Below, piece after piece: positions 4,087 to 34,210 of a DNA stretch of 64,000 nt. The notes below the pieces were generated by a model, which saw only the letters and a list, made by a program, of their open reading frames with translations, had not been told where the DNA came from and did not search any database. Both the position numbers and the translations under genes were made by a program. This DNA comes from Burkholderiaceae bacterium (GTDB lineage: Bacteria > Pseudomonadota > Gammaproteobacteria > Burkholderiales > Burkholderiaceae_C). The DNA is taken from NCBI GenBank assembly GCA_026125795.1, contig JAHCKM010000005.1, forward strand, positions 186,001 through 250,000. The letters run 5' to 3'. Every line of letters starts with the position of its first letter. Position 1 is the stretch's first letter.

Positions 4087-5685
4087 ATGAGCACACTCGA
4101 TACCAAACGCTGCGATCGCACGGTGGCCTGGCGCGCGCTGCAGGGTCACTATGAAGCACACGGCCGGGACCTCGACCTGCGCGATGCGTTCGCTCGCGAT
4201 CCCGCGCGTGCAGAGGCATTCTCGCTGCAGGCACCCGAGGTGTTCGCCGATCTGTCGAAGAACCGCTGGGATCTGCTGACGCGCAAGCTGCTGATCGACC
4301 TGGCGCACGAGTGCGGCATGCCGGCGCGCCGCGATGCGATGTTCAACGGCGAGCCGATCAACAGCACCGAGGGCCGCGCCGTGCTGCACACCGCGCTGCG
4401 CGCGCCGCCCGGCGCGGGCCCGTTCTCGAGCGACGTGCACGCGGTTCTCGATGACATGCTCGCCTTCGCCGAACGCGTGCGCGACAGCGCCAGCGGCATC
4501 CGCGCTGTGGTCAACATCGGCATCGGCGGGTCGGACCTGGGTCCGCAGATGGTCGTGCCGGCACTCGATTCTTATGCATCGAAGGCCATGGAGTACCACT
4601 TTGTCTCCAATGTCGACGGCCACGACATCACGCCGGTGCTGGCTCGACTGAAGCCGGAGTCGACGCTCTTCGTGATCGCGTCGAAGACCTTCACGACCCA
4701 GGAGACGATGGCCAATGCCGACGTGGCCCGCGCCTGGTTCATCGCGCACGGCGGGCTCGACATCGCGCGGCACTTCGTCGCCACGACCACCAACGTCCAG
4801 GCGGCAGCGGCGTTCGGCATCACCACCACGTTCGGCTTCTGGGACTGGGTCGGCGGACGCTACTCGATGTGGAGCGCGATCGGATTGCCGATCGCCATCG
4901 CGATCGGCGCGGCCCACTTTCGCGCGCTGCTCGCCGGCGCGCACGCCATGGACCGCCACTTCGCCGAGGCCCCGCTGGAACACAACCTGCCGGCGCAGCT
5001 CGGCCTGCTCGACGTGTGGTATCGCAACTTCCACCGTTTCGCGAGCCGCTCGGTGGCGCCGTACCACCAGGGGCTGAAGCGCCTGCCTGCTTACCTGCAG
5101 CAGCTGGAGATGGAGTCCAACGGCAAGGGTGTCGACCTCGATGGCGCTGTGTTGCCCTACGACTCCAGCGCCGTGGTGTGGGGCGAACCCGGAACCAACG
5201 GCCAGCATGCGTTCTTCCAGATGCTGCACCAGGGCACCGACGTGGTTCCATTGGAGTTCATCGCCGTGCGCACGCCGTCGCATCCGCACCTCTCGCTGCA
5301 CACGAAGGCGCTGGCGAACTGCCTGGCGCAGGCCCGGGCGCTGATGCTGGGCAAGAGCGTGGATGGGGCGCGCGGCGAGCGCGCCCCCACGGCGTCCGAC
5401 ACGATCGATGCCGACACTCTGGCGCGGCACCGGAGCTTTCCCGGCAACCGGCCGAGCACGACGCTGGTGCTCGATGCGCTGACGCCGCGCAGCCTGGGTG
5501 CGCTCGTCGCCCTGTATGAGCACCGGGTCTTCACCAGCGGCGCCGTGTGGGGCATCAACAGCTTCGACCAATGGGGCGTCGAGCTCGGCAAAGCACTGTG
5601 CAACGACCTGCTGCCGCGTTTTGCCACTGGGGATACCACGGGGTTGGACCCCTCCACGGCTGCATTGCTGCGCCGCTTGCGCTGA
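4087..5685 (+). CDS. pgi: Glucose-6-phosphate isomerase
   Basis: 532 aa. Interconverts glucose-6-phosphate and fructose-6-phosphate in glycolysis and gluconeogenesis. Phosphosugar-binding motifs are GIGGSDLGP (145-153) and SKTFTT (199-204). Catalytic residues fall where expected: Glu343 in ESNGKG and His374 in NGQH. The C-terminal signature GVELGK is also present. It diverges from zwf across a 165-nt spacer, so both enzymes that use glucose-6-phosphate share one control region. The length is slightly below E. coli Pgi (549 aa) but all motifs are intact. Confidence 0.95.
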   Translation: MSTLDTKRCDRTVAWRALQGHYEAHGRDLDLRDAFARDPARAEAFSLQAPEVFADLSKNRWDLLTRKLLIDLAHECGMPARRDAMFNGEPINSTEGRAVLHTALRAPPGAGPFSSDVHAVLDDMLAFAERVRDSASGIRAVVNIGIGGSDLGPQMVVPALDSYASKAMEYHFVSNVDGHDITPVLARLKPESTLFVIASKTFTTQETMANADVARAWFIAHGGLDIARHFVATTTNVQAAAAFGITTTFGFWDWVGGRYSMWSAIGLPIAIAIGAAHFRALLAGAHAMDRHFAEAPLEHNLPAQLGLLDVWYRNFHRFASRSVAPYHQGLKRLPAYLQQLEMESNGKGVDLDGAVLPYDSSAVVWGEPGTNGQHAFFQMLHQGTDVVPLEFIAVRTPSHPHLSLHTKALANCLAQARALMLGKSVDGARGERAPTASDTIDADTLARHRSFPGNRPSTTLVLDALTPRSLGALVALYEHRVFTSGAVWGINSFDQWGVELGKALCNDLLPRFATGDTTGLDPSTAALLRRLR

Positions 5686-26197: not shown

Positions 26198-27517
<1,320 letters not shown>

Positions 27518-27537: not shown

Positions 27538-28215
27538 ATGACGGCACCGCTCACGCTGGCGCTTTCCAAAGGTCGCATCTTCGACGAGACGCTGCCGCTG
27601 CTGCAGCGCGCGGGCTTGTCCGTGCTCGAGGACCCCGAAACCTCGCGCCGGCTGATCCTGCCGACCAACCGCGCCGACCTGCAGGTGGTGCTGGTGCGCG
27701 CCAGCGACGTGCCGACCTACGTGCAGTACGGCGGTGCGGACTTCGGCGTGGTCGGCCTCGACGTGCTGCTCGAGCACGGCGCGGCCTGGGGACATGCCGG
27801 CGGTGCCACCGGCTTGTACCAGCCGCTCGACCTCCAGATCGCGCGTTGTCGCATGAGCGTGGCGGCGCGCGCCGACTTCGATTACCCCGCCGCGGTCAGG
27901 CAAGGTTCGCGCATCCGCGTGGCCACCAAGTACGTGCAGCTCGCACGCCAGCACTTTGCCGACAAGGGCGTGCACGTCGACCTGATCAAGCTCTATGGCT
28001 CGATGGAGCTGGCGCCGCTGACCGGCCTGGCCGAATCGATCGTCGACCTGGTGTCCACCGGCAGCACGCTGAAGGCGAACAACCTGGTCGAGGTGGAACA
28101 CATCATGGACATCAGCGCGCGGCTGATCGTCAACCCGGCGTCGCTCAAGCTCAAGCGCGAAGTGCTGCGTCCGGTGATCGACGCGCTGGCCGGCGCCTGC
28201 GAGGAGCAGCGATGA
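27538..28215 (+). CDS. hisG: ATP phosphoribosyltransferase, short form
   Basis: 225 aa. First enzyme of histidine synthesis: joins ATP and PRPP to give phosphoribosyl-ATP. The start [18 protein letters not shown], the [13 protein letters not shown] segment and the PRPP site [16 protein letters not shown] are all clear. It lacks the C-terminal regulatory domain, so it is the short form that needs HisZ, which is not in this window. An in-frame ATG at 27514 overlapping the murA stop is an alternative start. I prefer 27538 because AGGGGG lies 7 nt before it. Confidence 0.95.
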
Positions 28216-28312: not shown

Positions 28313-30127
28313 ATGAGCGAAAGTCTGCGCATCGCGCGCCTCGACACGGCGGCGGCGAACTTTGAAGCCCAATTCGCACGTCTGCGCCACTGGTCCGACG
28401 AGACCGATCGTGCGGTCGAAGACGCGGTGACGGCGATCCTGGCCGACGTGCGGGCCCGCGGCGACACGGCGGTGCTGCAATACACCGCCCGCTTCGACAA
28501 GCTCGAGGCAGGCTCCATGGCGGAGCTGGAGATCGGCCCCGACGTGCTGAAGCAGGCCTTCGAGGGCCTGCCCGTGGCGCCGCGTGAAGCACTGCAGGCC
28601 GCCGCCGCCCGCGTGCGCAGCTACCACGAGCACCAGCTGCGTGCCAGCAGCCTCAGCTGGCAGGTGCGCGACGACGATGGCTCGCTGCTGGGGCAGAAGG
28701 TCACACCGCTCGATCGCGTGGGCATCTACGTGCCGGGCGGCAAGGCGGCCTATCCGTCGTCGGTGCTGATGAACGCGATCCCGGCGCAGGTGGCCGGCGT
28801 CGGCCAGATCGTGATGGTGGTGCCCACACCGGGCGGTGAGCGCAACGCGTTGGTGCTTGCGGCAGCGCACCTGGCCGGCGCGCACCGCGTGTTCACGATC
28901 GGCGGCGCGCAGGCGATCGGTGCGTTGGCCTACGGCACGGCGACGGTTCCGCCCGTCGACAAGATCACCGGCCCGGGCAACGCCTATGTCGCAAGCGCGA
29001 AGCGGCGCGTGTACGGCCAGGTGGGCATCGACATGATCGCCGGCCCCAGCGAGATCCTCGTGCTGGCCGACGGCAGCGTCGATCCCGATTGGGTGGCGAT
29101 GGATCTCTTCAGCCAGGCCGAGCACGACGAACTGGCGCAGAGCATCCTGCTCGCGCCCGACGCCGCCTACCTCGACGCCGTGCAGGCGGCGCTCGATCGA
29201 TTGCTGCCGTCGCTGCCGCGCCGGGCGGTGATCCGCGCATCGCTCGAAGGACGCGGGGCGCTGGTGCGGACGCGCTCGATGCAGGAAGCCTGCGAGCTGA
29301 GCAACCGCATCGCGCCCGAGCACCTGGAGATCTGCGCTCGCGAGCCGCAGCGCTGGGAGCCACTGCTGAAGCACGCCGGCGCCATCTTTCTCGGCGGCTT
29401 CACCAGCGAAAGCCTCGGCGACTACTGTGCCGGCCCGAACCACGTGCTGCCGACCTCCGGCACCGCACGCTTCAGTTCGCCGCTCGGCGTGTACGACTTC
29501 GTCAAGCGCTCCAGCCTGATCGAGGTGAGCGCCTCCGGCGCTCGGGCGCTGGGTCCGATCGCGGCCGAGCTGGCGCTCGGCGAGGGCTTGCAGGCACATG
29601 CCCGTGCGGCGCAGTTGCGCCTCGGCGCCGCCGCGGCCGCGGAGCGCAGCGGGTTTCACTTGCGCACGGTCACCGCGGACAACGTCGACTCGCTGATCCA
29701 GCTCGACGTCGCGCCCGAGCAGCAGACTTTGGTGGGATCGGTCGCCAAGTCGATCGCGCAGGCCTCGGTGCGCACGCCGGGCCGGCCGCTGGGCATCTAC
29801 GACGGCGACACGCCGGTGGGGTTCCTGCTGCTGTGGGATGTGCGGCGCGACCCGGACGAGCCCGCCGACCAGCTCTATGTGTGGCGCATCCTGATCGACG
29901 CCCGGCACCAGCGCAAAGGCTATGGCGCCCGGACGATGGGCTGGGTCATCGACGAGGCGCGGCGCCTGGGCGTGGCATCGGTCGGGCTGTCGCACCAGGA
30001 CATGCCCGGCAACGCCGGCCCGTTCTACGAGAAGCTCGGATTTCGCTACACCGGCAAGGTCGAGCACAACGAGCGCGTGATGGTGCTCGAGCTGAATACC
30101 GTTCCCAGCGAGGTGCCCCGTGGCTGA
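28313..30127 (+). CDS. hisD: Histidinol dehydrogenase fused to a GNAT acetyltransferase
   Basis: 604 aa, about 170 more than a normal HisD. Residues 1-436 are a complete histidinol dehydrogenase, which makes histidine from histidinol with two NAD+. Zinc ligands Gln268, His271, Asp370 and His429 and the catalytic pair Glu336-His337 (APEHLE) are all in place. After a short Ala-rich linker (437-446), residues 447-595 form a GNAT domain. It has the acetyl-CoA loop QRKGYGA (533-539) and a [11 protein letters not shown]...[13 protein letters not shown] pattern like spermidine/diamine acetyltransferases (PaiA/BltD type). There is no stop between the domains and no ATG at the junction. It overlaps hisC by 8 nt. 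The role of the acetyltransferase is unknown. Confidence 0.93.
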
Positions 30128-31220
30128 GACCGTGCCCCTGCAGCAGCGCATCGCGCGCGTGATCCGGCAGGACGTGCAGTCCACGCACGGCTACGCCATC
30201 CAGGACAGCAAGGGCCTGGTCAAGCTCGATGCGATGGAAAACCCGTTTGGCCTGCCGGCGCCCTTGCAGCGCGAGCTGGGCGAGAGGCTGTCGCGCGTGG
30301 CGATCAACCGTTACCCGGTGCAGAGCACGGCCGATGTCGTGGCCGCGCTGTCGCGCTACGCGCAGCTGCCGGCCGGCTGCAAGCTGATGCTCGGCAACGG
30401 CTCCGACGAGCTGATCGACATGCTGTCGGTGGCCTGCGACGTGCCCGGCGCGACGCTGCTTGCGCCGGAGCCCGGCTTCGTCATGTACCGCATGTCGGCG
30501 CAGCTGCGCGGCCTGCGCTTCGTCGGCGTGCCGTTGACGCCGGAGTTCGAACTCGACCGTGCTGCGATGCTGGCGGCCGTCGAGCACGAGCGGCCGGCGC
30601 TGACCTACATCGGCTATCCGAACAACCCCACCTGCAACCTGTGGGACGACGCGGTGATCGACGAGATCGTCGCCGCGGTGGGCGCGCAGAACGGCCTGGT
30701 GGTGTTCGACGAGGCCTATCAGCCGTTTTCGTCGCGCACCTGGATGCAGCGCATGGCGTCGCATGACCACGTGCTGGTGATGCGCACGTTGAGCAAGTTC
30801 GGACTGGCCGGCGTGCGCCTGGGATACCTGTGCGGCCACGCGGCGCTCATCGACGAGGTCGAGAAGGTGCGTCCGCCGTACAACGTGAGCGTGCTCAATG
30901 CCGAGGCGACCTTGTTCGCGCTGGACCATGCCGACGAATACGCGCGCCAGGCCGCGACGCTGCGCGCCGAACGTGAGCGGCTTCAGACGGCGTTTCGCAC
31001 CCTGCCCGGCGTGCGCAGCTATCCGAGCGAAGCCAACATGATCCTGCTGCGCGTGCCCGACGCCAAGCGCACGTTCGAAGGCATGAAGGCACGCGGCGTG
31101 CTGGTCAAGAACATCGGCGCGGCACTCGGCCACCCGTTGCTGGCCAATTGCCTGCGCCTGACGGTCGGCACGCCACAGGAGAACACCCTGATGATCGACG
31201 CCCTGAAAGCGAGCCTCTGA
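30120..31220 (+). CDS. hisC: Histidinol-phosphate aminotransferase
   Basis: 366 aa with a GTG start. A PLP-dependent aminotransferase converting imidazole-acetol phosphate to histidinol phosphate. Features include [11 protein letters not shown] near 37, [11 protein letters not shown] at 93-103, YPNNPTCN at 166-173, and the Schiff-base Lys226 in [15 protein letters not shown]. The start overlaps the end of the hisD-GNAT gene by 8 nt, and its stop overlaps the hisB start (TGATG), so translation of the three genes is probably coupled. Confidence 0.95.
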
Positions 31221-31819
31221 TGATGACCGCGCCGCGCACCGCCGACGTCACGCGCAACACCAAGGAAACGCAGATCCGTGTGCAGGTGAATCTCGATGGT
31301 ACGGGGCAGGCCAAACTCGCCACGGGGATCGGCTTCTTCGACCACATGCTCGATCAGGTGGCGCGCCATGGCCTGGTCGATCTGGATGTCGACGCCAAGG
31401 GCGACCTGCACATCGACGGCCACCATCTGGTCGAAGACGTCGGCATCACGCTGGGCATGGCGGTGGCCAAGGCGGTGGGCGACAAGGCTGGCATCACGCG
31501 TTACGGCCACGCCTACGTACCGCTCGACGAGGCGCTGTCGCGCGTGGTGGTCGACTTCTCCGGCCGCCCTGGGCTTCACATGCGCGTGCCGTTCAAGGCA
31601 TCGATGATCGGCGGCTTCGACACGCAGCTCGCCTACGAGTTCTTCCAGGGCTTCTCCAACCATGCCCTGGTGACGCTGCACATCGATAACCTGCACGGCG
31701 ACAACGCCCACCACCAGTGCGAAACGGTGTTCAAGGCATTCGCCCGGGCGCTGCGCATGGCGCTTGCGGCCGACCCCCGGTCGGCCGGCGTCGTGCCGTC
31801 GACCAAGGGCACGCTGTGA
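31220..31819 (+). CDS. hisB: Imidazoleglycerol-phosphate dehydratase
   Basis: 199 aa. Monofunctional HisB, without the N-terminal phosphatase domain found in E. coli. It dehydrates imidazole glycerol phosphate using Mn2+. Metal-binding His clusters are visible in [23 protein letters not shown] and the later [16 protein letters not shown]. The ATG at 31220 overlaps the hisC stop; a second ATG follows directly. A separate histidinol-phosphate phosphatase is therefore needed, and none is in this operon. Confidence 0.95.
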
Positions 31820-31850
31820 GGGGGAGCCGACGGGCCGTCCCGAGGCACGG

Positions 31851-31893
31851 CGCTCCCCCTTGGGCGAACGCGAGCGCAGCGAGCAAGGGGGCA
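31851..31893. repeat. GC-rich palindromic repeat between hisB and hisH
   Basis: CGCTCCCCCTTGGGCG...GCGAGCAAGGGGGC forms an imperfect hairpin whose arms (GCTCCCCCTTG and CAAGGGGGC) are close complements. It shares blocks with repeats at 88-153 and 23216-23300. There is no U-run, so a terminator is unlikely; it may stabilise or attenuate the his mRNA. Confidence 0.45.
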
Positions 31894-31901
31894 CACTGAC
31901 C

Positions 31902-32555
31902 ATGGCACGGCGTGTAGGGGTGGTCGACCATGGCATGGGCAACCTGCGCTCGGTGGCGCAGGCGGTCAAGCATGTGGCGGCCGGCACGGATTGGGAGGTC
32001 GTGATCGCATCGCGCCCGGAACAGGTGGCGTCGGCCGATCGTGTGGTGCTGCCGGGTCAGGGTGCGATGCGCGACTGCATGCGCGAGCTCGAGACCACCG
32101 GCTTGAAACCGGCAGTGCTCGAAGCCGTGCGCCGCAAGCCGTTGATGGGCGTTTGCGTCGGCATGCAGATGTTGCTCGACCACAGTGAAGAGCAGGACAC
32201 GCCCGGATTGGGGTTGATCCCGGGGCGCGTGGTGCGGTTCAGGCTCGAAGGTCGTTTTCAGAGCGACGGCAGCCACTTCAAGCTGCCGCAGATGGGCTGG
32301 AACCAGGTGCGCCAGCGGCCGGGCGCCTCGCATCCGATGTGGCGCGACGTGCCAGATGAGAGCTACTTCTATTTCCTGCACAGCTACTACGCGATACCGT
32401 CGGACGAATGCCACAGCGCCGCGGACAGCGACTACGGCGGGCGCTTTACCTGCGCAGTGGCGCGCGATAACATTTTTGCCACCCAGTTCCACCCAGAGAA
32501 GAGCGCCACCCACGGTCTGACCCTCTATCGGAACTTTCTCGCCTGGACGCCTTGA
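31902..32555 (+). CDS. hisH: Imidazole glycerol phosphate synthase, glutaminase subunit
   Basis: 217 aa. The glutaminase that feeds ammonia to HisF. Class I amidotransferase triad: Cys85 in GVCVGMQM, His197 and Glu199 in FHPEKS. The opening [14 protein letters not shown] and [12 protein letters not shown] are typical. The frame extends upstream through the repeat, but the ATG at 31902 gives the standard start. It forms the cyclase complex with HisF, encoded 0.9 kb downstream. Confidence 0.95.
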
Positions 32556-32649: not shown

Positions 32650-33393
32650 ATGCTGCTGATCCCCGCGATCGATCTGAAAGACGGCAAGTGTGTCCGCCTC
32701 GAACAGGGCGACATGAAGACGGCCACCACCTTCGGCGACAACCCGGCCGCGATGGCGCGCCGCTGGCTCGACGCGGGCGCGCGCCGCCTGCACCTGGTGG
32801 ACCTCAACGGTGCGTTCGCCGGCAAGCCGGTCAACGAGGCCGCGGTCAAGGCGATCGTGCGCGAAGTCGGCGACCAGATCCCGGTGCAGATGGGCGGCGG
32901 CCTGCGCGACCTCGACACCATCGAGCGTTTTCTCGACGACGGGCTGAGCTACGTGATCATCGGCACTGCGGCGGTCAAGAACCCGGGCTTCCTCAAGGAC
33001 GCCTGCAGCGCCTTCGGCGGCCACGTGATCGTGGGGCTCGATGCCAGGGACGGCAAGGTTGCCACCGACGGCTGGAGCAAGCTCACCGGCCATGAAGTGA
33101 TCGACCTGGCCAAGAAGTTCGAGGATTACGGCGTCGAAGCCGTCGTCTACACCGACATCGGCCGCGACGGCATGCTCACCGGCGTGAACATCGAGGCCAC
33201 GGTCAAGCTCGCGCAGGCGCTCACGATCCCGGTGTTCGCATCCGGCGGCCTGAGCGGCATCGCCGACATCGAGAAGCTCTGCGCGGTCGAACAAGAAGGC
33301 GTGCAGGGCGTGATCTGCGGGCGAGCGCTCTACAACGGCTCGCTCGACTTCGTCGCGGCGCAGAAGCGCGTCGACGAGCTGAACGGCGGTTGA
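32650..33393 (+). CDS. hisA: ProFAR isomerase (HisA)
   Basis: 247 aa. A TIM-barrel isomerase that opens the ribose ring of ProFAR. Catalytic Asp8 ([13 protein letters not shown]) and the second Asp in [13 protein letters not shown] are present, along with the phosphate-binding loops VQMGGGLRD and FASGGLSG. The gene is homologous to the adjacent hisF, the classic half-barrel duplication. A 94-nt spacer after hisH holds no clear signal. Confidence 0.95.

Positions 33394-33430: not shown

Positions 33431-34206
<776 letters not shown>

Positions 34207-34210
<4 letters not shown>

Follow-up and report, generated by a model that had tools for sequence, protein, structure and literature searches.

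A histidinol dehydrogenase (HisD) is joined in frame to an acetyltransferase of the GNAT type within the histidine operon of a Burkholderiaceae bacterium, and this join is real, is common to many related species, and is kept by selection. In the window, by which we mean the whole stretch of 64,000 nucleotides that was analyzed, the hisD::GNAT fusion gene occupies positions 28313..30127 of the plus strand (604 codons plus a stop). Translation of this interval gives 604 residues with a single stop at the end, and both Pfam domains score above their cut-offs, which bears out the uninterrupted 604-codon frame claimed in a sequence-only reading of the window. The whole genome to which the window belongs yields one match to the fusion protein.

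The fusion gene lies between hisG (27580..28215; PF01634) and hisC (30120..31220; PF00155). A murA-like gene (26255..27517; PF00275) is found upstream, and hisB (31211..31819; PF00475), hisH (31764..32555; glutamine amidotransferase PF00117), hisA (32650..33393; PF00977), and hisF (33431..34210; PF00977), the final his gene of the cluster, follow downstream, all on the plus strand. The starts of the murA-like gene, hisG, and hisB were chosen by the analysts, and hisH is given as a mechanical open reading frame whose real start is probably later. The GTG start of hisC at 30120 overlaps the fusion stop (30125-30127) by 8 bases, and with his genes on both sides the previously claimed embedding in the operon is confirmed. 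The sole hisI match (PF01502) in the genome falls on the same contig, approximately 80 kb beyond the window. Among the loci retrieved from named genomes, the order murA-hisG-fusion-hisC-hisB-hisH-hisA-hisF is kept as far as the contigs extend, with the exception of two loci (L075 and L076, of the AAP99 type) in which HisC is encoded far downstream. These two carry HisD-GNAT amid divergent his genes (HisD 61-62% to that of the window) in a spread-out operon, with hisC located 2.9-4.3 kb after HisD.

HisD is the last enzyme of histidine synthesis. Judged by its sequence, the portion of the fusion protein spanning residues 1-436 (28313..29620, plus strand) is an ordinary zinc-dependent histidinol dehydrogenase, and its his operon context supports the oxidation of histidinol to histidine with NAD+ as its reaction. 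Pfam PF00815 matches residues 29-437 with 541.6 bits (cut-off 27), and the NCBIfam hisD model TIGR00069 scores 507.8 bits (cut-off 243.8). Residues Q268, H271, E336, H337, D370, and H429 align to Q259, H262, E326, H327, D360, and H419 of E. coli HisD (1k75), of which we take Q259, H262, D360, and H419 to be the zinc ligands and E326-H327 the catalytic pair. The alignment upholds the earlier assignment of Gln268, His271, Asp370, and His429 as zinc ligands together with Glu336-His337, and all of the 31 fused proteins compared (31 of 31) keep the ligands and the Glu-His pair unchanged. In Medicago HisD, the zinc ligands are Gln299, His302, Asp401, and His460 (PMC5585171). A second HisD-like gene, with 35-39% identity, is frequent in these genomes (L007 and many others) and is perhaps a sulfopropanediol-dehydrogenase-type relative.

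The linker that follows (residues 437-449; 29621..29659, plus strand) starts right after Arg436 and measures 13 residues, not the approximately 10 first estimated. It is short, variable, and Ala-rich; across 30 fused genes its length ranges from 13 to 38 residues with a median of 16, and its sequence is not conserved. The sequence-only reading had proposed looking in relatives for the same fusion and for stops at the junction. The fusion does recur, and neither a stop nor a frameshift was seen at the junction in relatives that carry the GNAT domain. A sequencing or assembly artifact is ruled out by the identical in-frame junction in independent genomes. Separate translation of the GNAT domain from an internal start is likewise unsupported. 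The linker of the window and its surroundings include no ATG or GTG, and neither of two nearby TTG codons has a Shine-Dalgarno-like motif. Only 9 of the 30 fused genes have a start codon preceded by a Shine-Dalgarno-like 4-mer in the linker region, and the places differ among them.

The remainder of the protein (residues 450-604; 29660..30124, plus strand) matches Pfam PF00583 at residues 486-577 with 43.4 bits (cut-off 20.7). It includes the acetyl-CoA loop Q533-R-K-G536-Y-G538, which agrees with the motif R/Q-x-x-G-x-G/A as stated in PMC10416765, and a catalytic-type tyrosine, Tyr572. Thus, the full GNAT domain with an acetyl-CoA loop that had been claimed is present. In a profile search of the PDB, the spermine/spermidine acetyltransferases 9dsb and 2fl4 ranked first (E values of 1.7e-15 and 2.9e-15). 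The match is nearly full length (profile positions 4-151 of 156), and the fused GNAT shares with these enzymes the Q-x-x-G-x-G loop and the Tyr-x-x-Leu-Gly-Phe and GE-x-x-M motifs, although 9dsb and 2fl4 are free-standing chains. The third match is the canavanine acetyltransferase LcGNAT (8osp), and rimI-type protein acetyltransferases are found among the weaker matches. The proposed likeness to spermidine/diamine acetyltransferases therefore holds for the nearest solved relatives but fails for the curated NCBIfam PaiA spermidine acetyltransferase equivalog, which the domain misses widely (16.4 bits; cut-off 250).

LcGNAT likewise belongs to the polyamine acetyltransferase subclass, and it takes an amino-acid analogue. 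Mutating Glu92, Tyr97, or Tyr142 is reported to lower its activity (PMC10416765). In our reading of the 8osp alignment, Tyr142 corresponds to Tyr572, and this catalytic tyrosine of SSAT/PaiA enzymes is present in 42 of 42 fused domains. In contrast, Glu92, the PaiA-type general base, is replaced by Tyr522 and Tyr97 by Leu527 (again by our reading, with the 8osp chain numbers shifted by 3). With the PaiA model missed and Tyr142 alone kept, the domain is assigned to the broader polyamine-acetyltransferase group rather than to the spermidine acetyltransferases themselves. Furthermore, a comparison of 33 fused domains with 43 free relatives reveals differing residues at positions 490, 491, 493, 511, 513, and 561, where most free forms carry A490, W491, R493, and Y561 and the fused ones have mostly G, R, L, and H. 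Such differences suggest that the domain may have shifted to another substrate, which need not be a polyamine. The best reading is that the GNAT part is a small-amine N-acetyltransferase, probably distantly related to spermine/spermidine acetyltransferases. The neighborhoods of ten free GNAT relatives, when inspected by eye, revealed no shared pathway gene.

Use of the domain is indicated by its sequence conservation. The fused GNAT domains of 73 loci comprise 42 distinct sequences, one of which (L070) comes from a probably chimeric contig. Residues Y572, Q533, G536, W524, R525, D509, R511, and E587 are invariant in all 42, and G538 is kept in 41 with A in the remaining one. Estimates of omega with IQ-TREE (GY+F3X4; 30 fused genes, L070 left out) are 0.101 for GNAT (145 codons) and 0.081 for HisD (430 codons). 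Median pairwise Nei-Gojobori values are higher, at 0.50 for GNAT versus 0.30 for HisD (462 of 465 pairs, L070 included), and both are probably inflated by the strong bias toward GC in codon use. All values are below 1 for both parts, and by the pairwise method GNAT is less constrained than HisD. From the invariant residues and the purifying selection we infer that GNAT is likely an active acetyl-CoA-dependent N-acetyltransferase.

The fusion is present in four of the six genomes of the window's genus; of the others, one (G004) is cut by a contig end and one (G003) has HisD without GNAT. When 299 genomes of the family were searched with the GNAT part, 51 gave a match. Near-full-length matches at 50% identity or more occur in 12 of the 299, all fused to HisD in the retrieved locus, and in 18 further retrieved loci with at most 45% identity no HisD adjoins the GNAT relative. 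The retrieved family loci do not include a second match in G280, a 66-residue match of 52% in G284, or weaker matches. Among 399 genomes sampled from the order and 398 from the phylum, no GNAT relative in a retrieved locus stands beside HisD, except in the window's own genome. Matches in a second genus, that of G122, span the full fused length in three of five genomes, comprise only a 36% HisD-like gene in one, and are absent in one. A close GNAT relative encoded as a separate gene was not seen in the genomes searched.

A scan of named genomes, which used two peptide patterns only and thus gives a lower bound biased to the fused clade, yielded 33 loci, 32 of them with an in-frame fusion (30 complete, L070 among them). 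In two loci hisD is cut by the contig start and is still in frame (L056 and L059). In one more (L055) the contig ends between hisD and GNAT, and the hisD contig of the same genome (L212, G1074) enters the same GNAT in frame. The titles of these records name Ideonella, Rubrivivax, Aquincola, Rhizobacter, and unplaced Burkholderiales or betaproteobacteria. Most are metagenome-assembled genomes (MAGs); the three records not marked as such are Rubrivivax rivuli KYPY4, AAP65, and AAP99. Many of the 33 loci come from genomes that also occur in the other samples, as recognized by identical sequences. L070 (JAMLIM010000060.1) looks as if one MAG had two copies of the fusion, but it is probably a chimeric contig instead. 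From base 4188, which lies inside hisD, onward it shares 98% identity with L071, and before that point approximately 76-79%.

The most varied picture comes from the Rubrivivax-type genus that includes G199, in which 79 of 81 genomes have a match and 2 have none. HisD is followed by a fused GNAT in 28 of the 81 genomes and by HisC fused in frame in 14. A stop and a VapBC-like pair follow in 8, and a stop and another gene in 28, mostly hisC where the stretch reached that far, with one genome (G1123) unsorted. For this count a second, unfused copy in G1104 was left out, and G1064 and G1074 were each judged from two contigs. Close relatives without GNAT (one of six genomes in the window's genus; in the Rubrivivax-type genus, 50 of 81) argue that histidine synthesis does not depend on it, and the acetyltransferase, being patchy in presence, looks accessory.

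The in-frame fusion of HisD to HisC was unexpected (loci L204, L205, L208, L219, L223, L224, L226, L227, L232, L238, L242, L243, L248, and L251), and no description of it was recognized in the open-access literature searched. In one case (L219:43-2514, from G272) the protein, counted from the first aligned codon, is 824 residues long and matches PF00815 at 25-443 and PF00155 at 485-815; the other 13 were judged by the open frame that runs through HisD into HisC. G272 is sister to G199 plus G1058 in the HisD tree (SH-aLRT 99). Its DNA is 87-91% identical to that of G199 on both flanks, and it lacks GNAT, with HisD running into HisC by a different linker. The occurrence of HisD-GNAT and HisD-HisC in sister species identifies the point after the last conserved residue of HisD as a repeated fusion site. 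This makes the GNAT join alone weaker as proof of a functional link. Neither the spread of the HisD-GNAT trait over tens of species nor this second use of the HisD tail, by HisC, could be seen in the sequence-only reading.

In a 52-row tree the fused GNATs group as a single clade (one change, with L055 counted as fused), and GNAT and HisD distances are correlated (r of 0.59 over 28 rows, without L075 and L076; 0 of 2000 permutations reached this value). On HisD trees and on a tree of flanking genes alike, the fused state is scattered, and the states behind HisD require 26 changes on a 75-row HisD tree. In the flanking-gene tree (48 rows, from which L055, L056, L057, L059, L070, and L071 had been left out beforehand), a core clade holds 23 fused rows plus the unfused G003, and L047, L052, L073, and L075/L076 are fused rows outside of it. 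Single vertical inheritance is rejected, as these outside rows need either exchange or many losses. An origin of the GNAT domain as a former neighbor gene of hisD is also rejected, as neither HisD nor another tested his gene was found near any of 68 GNAT relatives (L026-L043 and L109-L158, with at most approximately 1.5 kb on each side), 5 of which gave no tblastn match to the GNAT of the window.

The explanation that we favor, and regard as probable if only by a little, is that one protein holds two working enzymes, HisD in its first 436 residues and GNAT in its last approximately 155. The second would N-acetylate some small amine in an accessory reaction, with a diamine or polyamine as the first choice of substrate and an amine of the histidine pathway as the second. 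Its attachment to HisD would serve co-expression and location, and the join would have been made once and later lost or exchanged many times. The location can be pictured from the Medicago structure paper, in which the two subunits swap their C-terminal domain IV, so that His460 of one is a zinc ligand in the active site of the other (PMC5585171). Arg436 lies seven residues past His429, the equivalent of that swapped ligand, and with the linker beginning just after it, GNAT would sit on a short tether close to where the partner subunit binds histidinol/histidine. Several observations tell against the favored explanation, among them the weaker constraint on GNAT in the pairwise comparison, the replacement of Glu92 and Tyr97, the residues that set fused domains apart from free ones, and the lack of a shared pathway gene beside the ten free relatives. 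Moreover, the same GNAT type joins other partners, and joining HisD therefore need not mean a role in histidine metabolism. In one such relative (L028:261-1460, plus strand; 41% identity) the GNAT is fused to DUF924 (PF06041, 208.5 bits) in one 400-codon frame, and in another (L109:1507-2592, minus strand) it follows a different GNAT domain in a protein made of two GNATs in tandem.

The same geometry lends itself to a more specific reading, in which GNAT acetylates histidinol, histidinol phosphate, or histidine as it leaves the HisD/HisC active sites, either as an overflow, storage, or export form or to spare the cell excess histidinol. The tether starts seven residues past a zinc ligand that, by the Medicago structure, sits in the histidinol site of the partner. 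The residues common to fused GNATs and unlike those of free relatives fit this reading, and the canavanine-specific third solved relative demonstrates that the type can take an amino acid. The product of HisC is histidinol phosphate, and HisC is the alternative partner at the same point in the 14 genomes noted above. Nevertheless, we consider acetylation of a pathway amine unlikely. Many close relatives encode HisD, and also HisC where the retrieved stretch extends that far, but lack GNAT; the linker range of 13-38 residues argues against a built channel; and neither acetylated histidinol nor such an enzyme was found in the open-access literature searched. An N-acetylated branch of the histidine pathway, catalyzed by a bifunctional HisD-acetyltransferase acting on one of these amines, with the swapped HisD tail serving as a docking point for GNAT or HisC, is a similarly doubtful possibility.

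The join could also be functionless if a neighboring gene lost its start as hisD lost its stop, with GNAT now being lost. The end of HisD is indeed a fusion hotspot, given the 28 GNAT and 14 HisC joins in 81 genomes and the 26 state changes, and both the sister species G272 and the fusions of GNAT relatives to other proteins are consistent with a join of this kind. However, the omega of 0.101 and the invariant catalytic residues speak for a domain in use, the flanking-gene tree is compatible with entry of GNAT into other lineages, and a separate GNAT beside hisD was never seen (0 of 68 other relatives). We judge this reading quite improbable. Some GNATs acetylate proteins, and the fusion does place GNAT on an enzyme that it might modify, either HisD itself or a partner, so as to tune histidine synthesis to the acetyl-CoA level. 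This seems very unlikely, as the names of the nearest solved relatives are those of small-molecule enzymes, even though rimI-type proteins are among the weaker matches, and as the patchy occurrence implies that regulation works without GNAT.

The nearest parallel to the two-enzyme protein that we favor is ArgH(A) of Moritella and other marine gammaproteobacteria, an argininosuccinate lyase with a C-terminal GNAT, which is likewise an amino-acid biosynthetic enzyme with a fused acetyltransferase that is limited to one bacterial group. The ArgH(A) acetyltransferase serves its own pathway and complements argA (PMC1382215), whereas the histidine pathway is not known to us to include an acetylation step and the best matches of the GNAT joined to HisD are of another type. 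That the fused GNAT supplies N-acetylglutamate for arginine synthesis in the same manner is suggested by the shared layout but is extremely improbable, since the window's genome has an argJ-family gene (PF01960, 487.8 bits) and the best solved GNAT matches are spermine/spermidine enzymes, not N-acetylglutamate synthases (NAGS).

Fungal HIS4, a HisI-HisE-HisD protein, also places HisD within a larger histidine-pathway polypeptide. In it HisI-HisE stands in front of HisD, whereas GNAT comes after it in the window. The passages of PMC1963479 that were consulted mention neither hisC nor a GNAT, and the main text of that paper lacks the word acetyltransferase. Within the open-access literature searched, no recognizable description of a HisD-acetyltransferase fusion or of acetylhistidinol was found, in keeping with the initial reading, to which no described enzyme of this kind was known.

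Histidine synthesis is a textbook pathway whose gene fusions have been surveyed. A selected HisD-GNAT in tens of species, together with HisD-HisC at the same joint, provides natural pairs with and without the fusion that let one ask why metabolic enzymes fuse. HisD-GNAT also hints that histidine metabolism may have an acetylation beside it that has not been described.

The interval between hisD and hisC is further occupied in many relatives by a toxin-antitoxin-like pair that consists of a PIN-domain protein (PF01850) and a small protein with a weak, below cut-off match to DUF6364. The pair is found after fused and unfused hisD alike (L005, L063:5512-6188, L081, L052, and others), and repeats of the type ACACGAAGTTCGTG accompany it inside the his operon. 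In five loci (L052, L061, L063, L065, and L072) the fusion stop falls within TTGACA.
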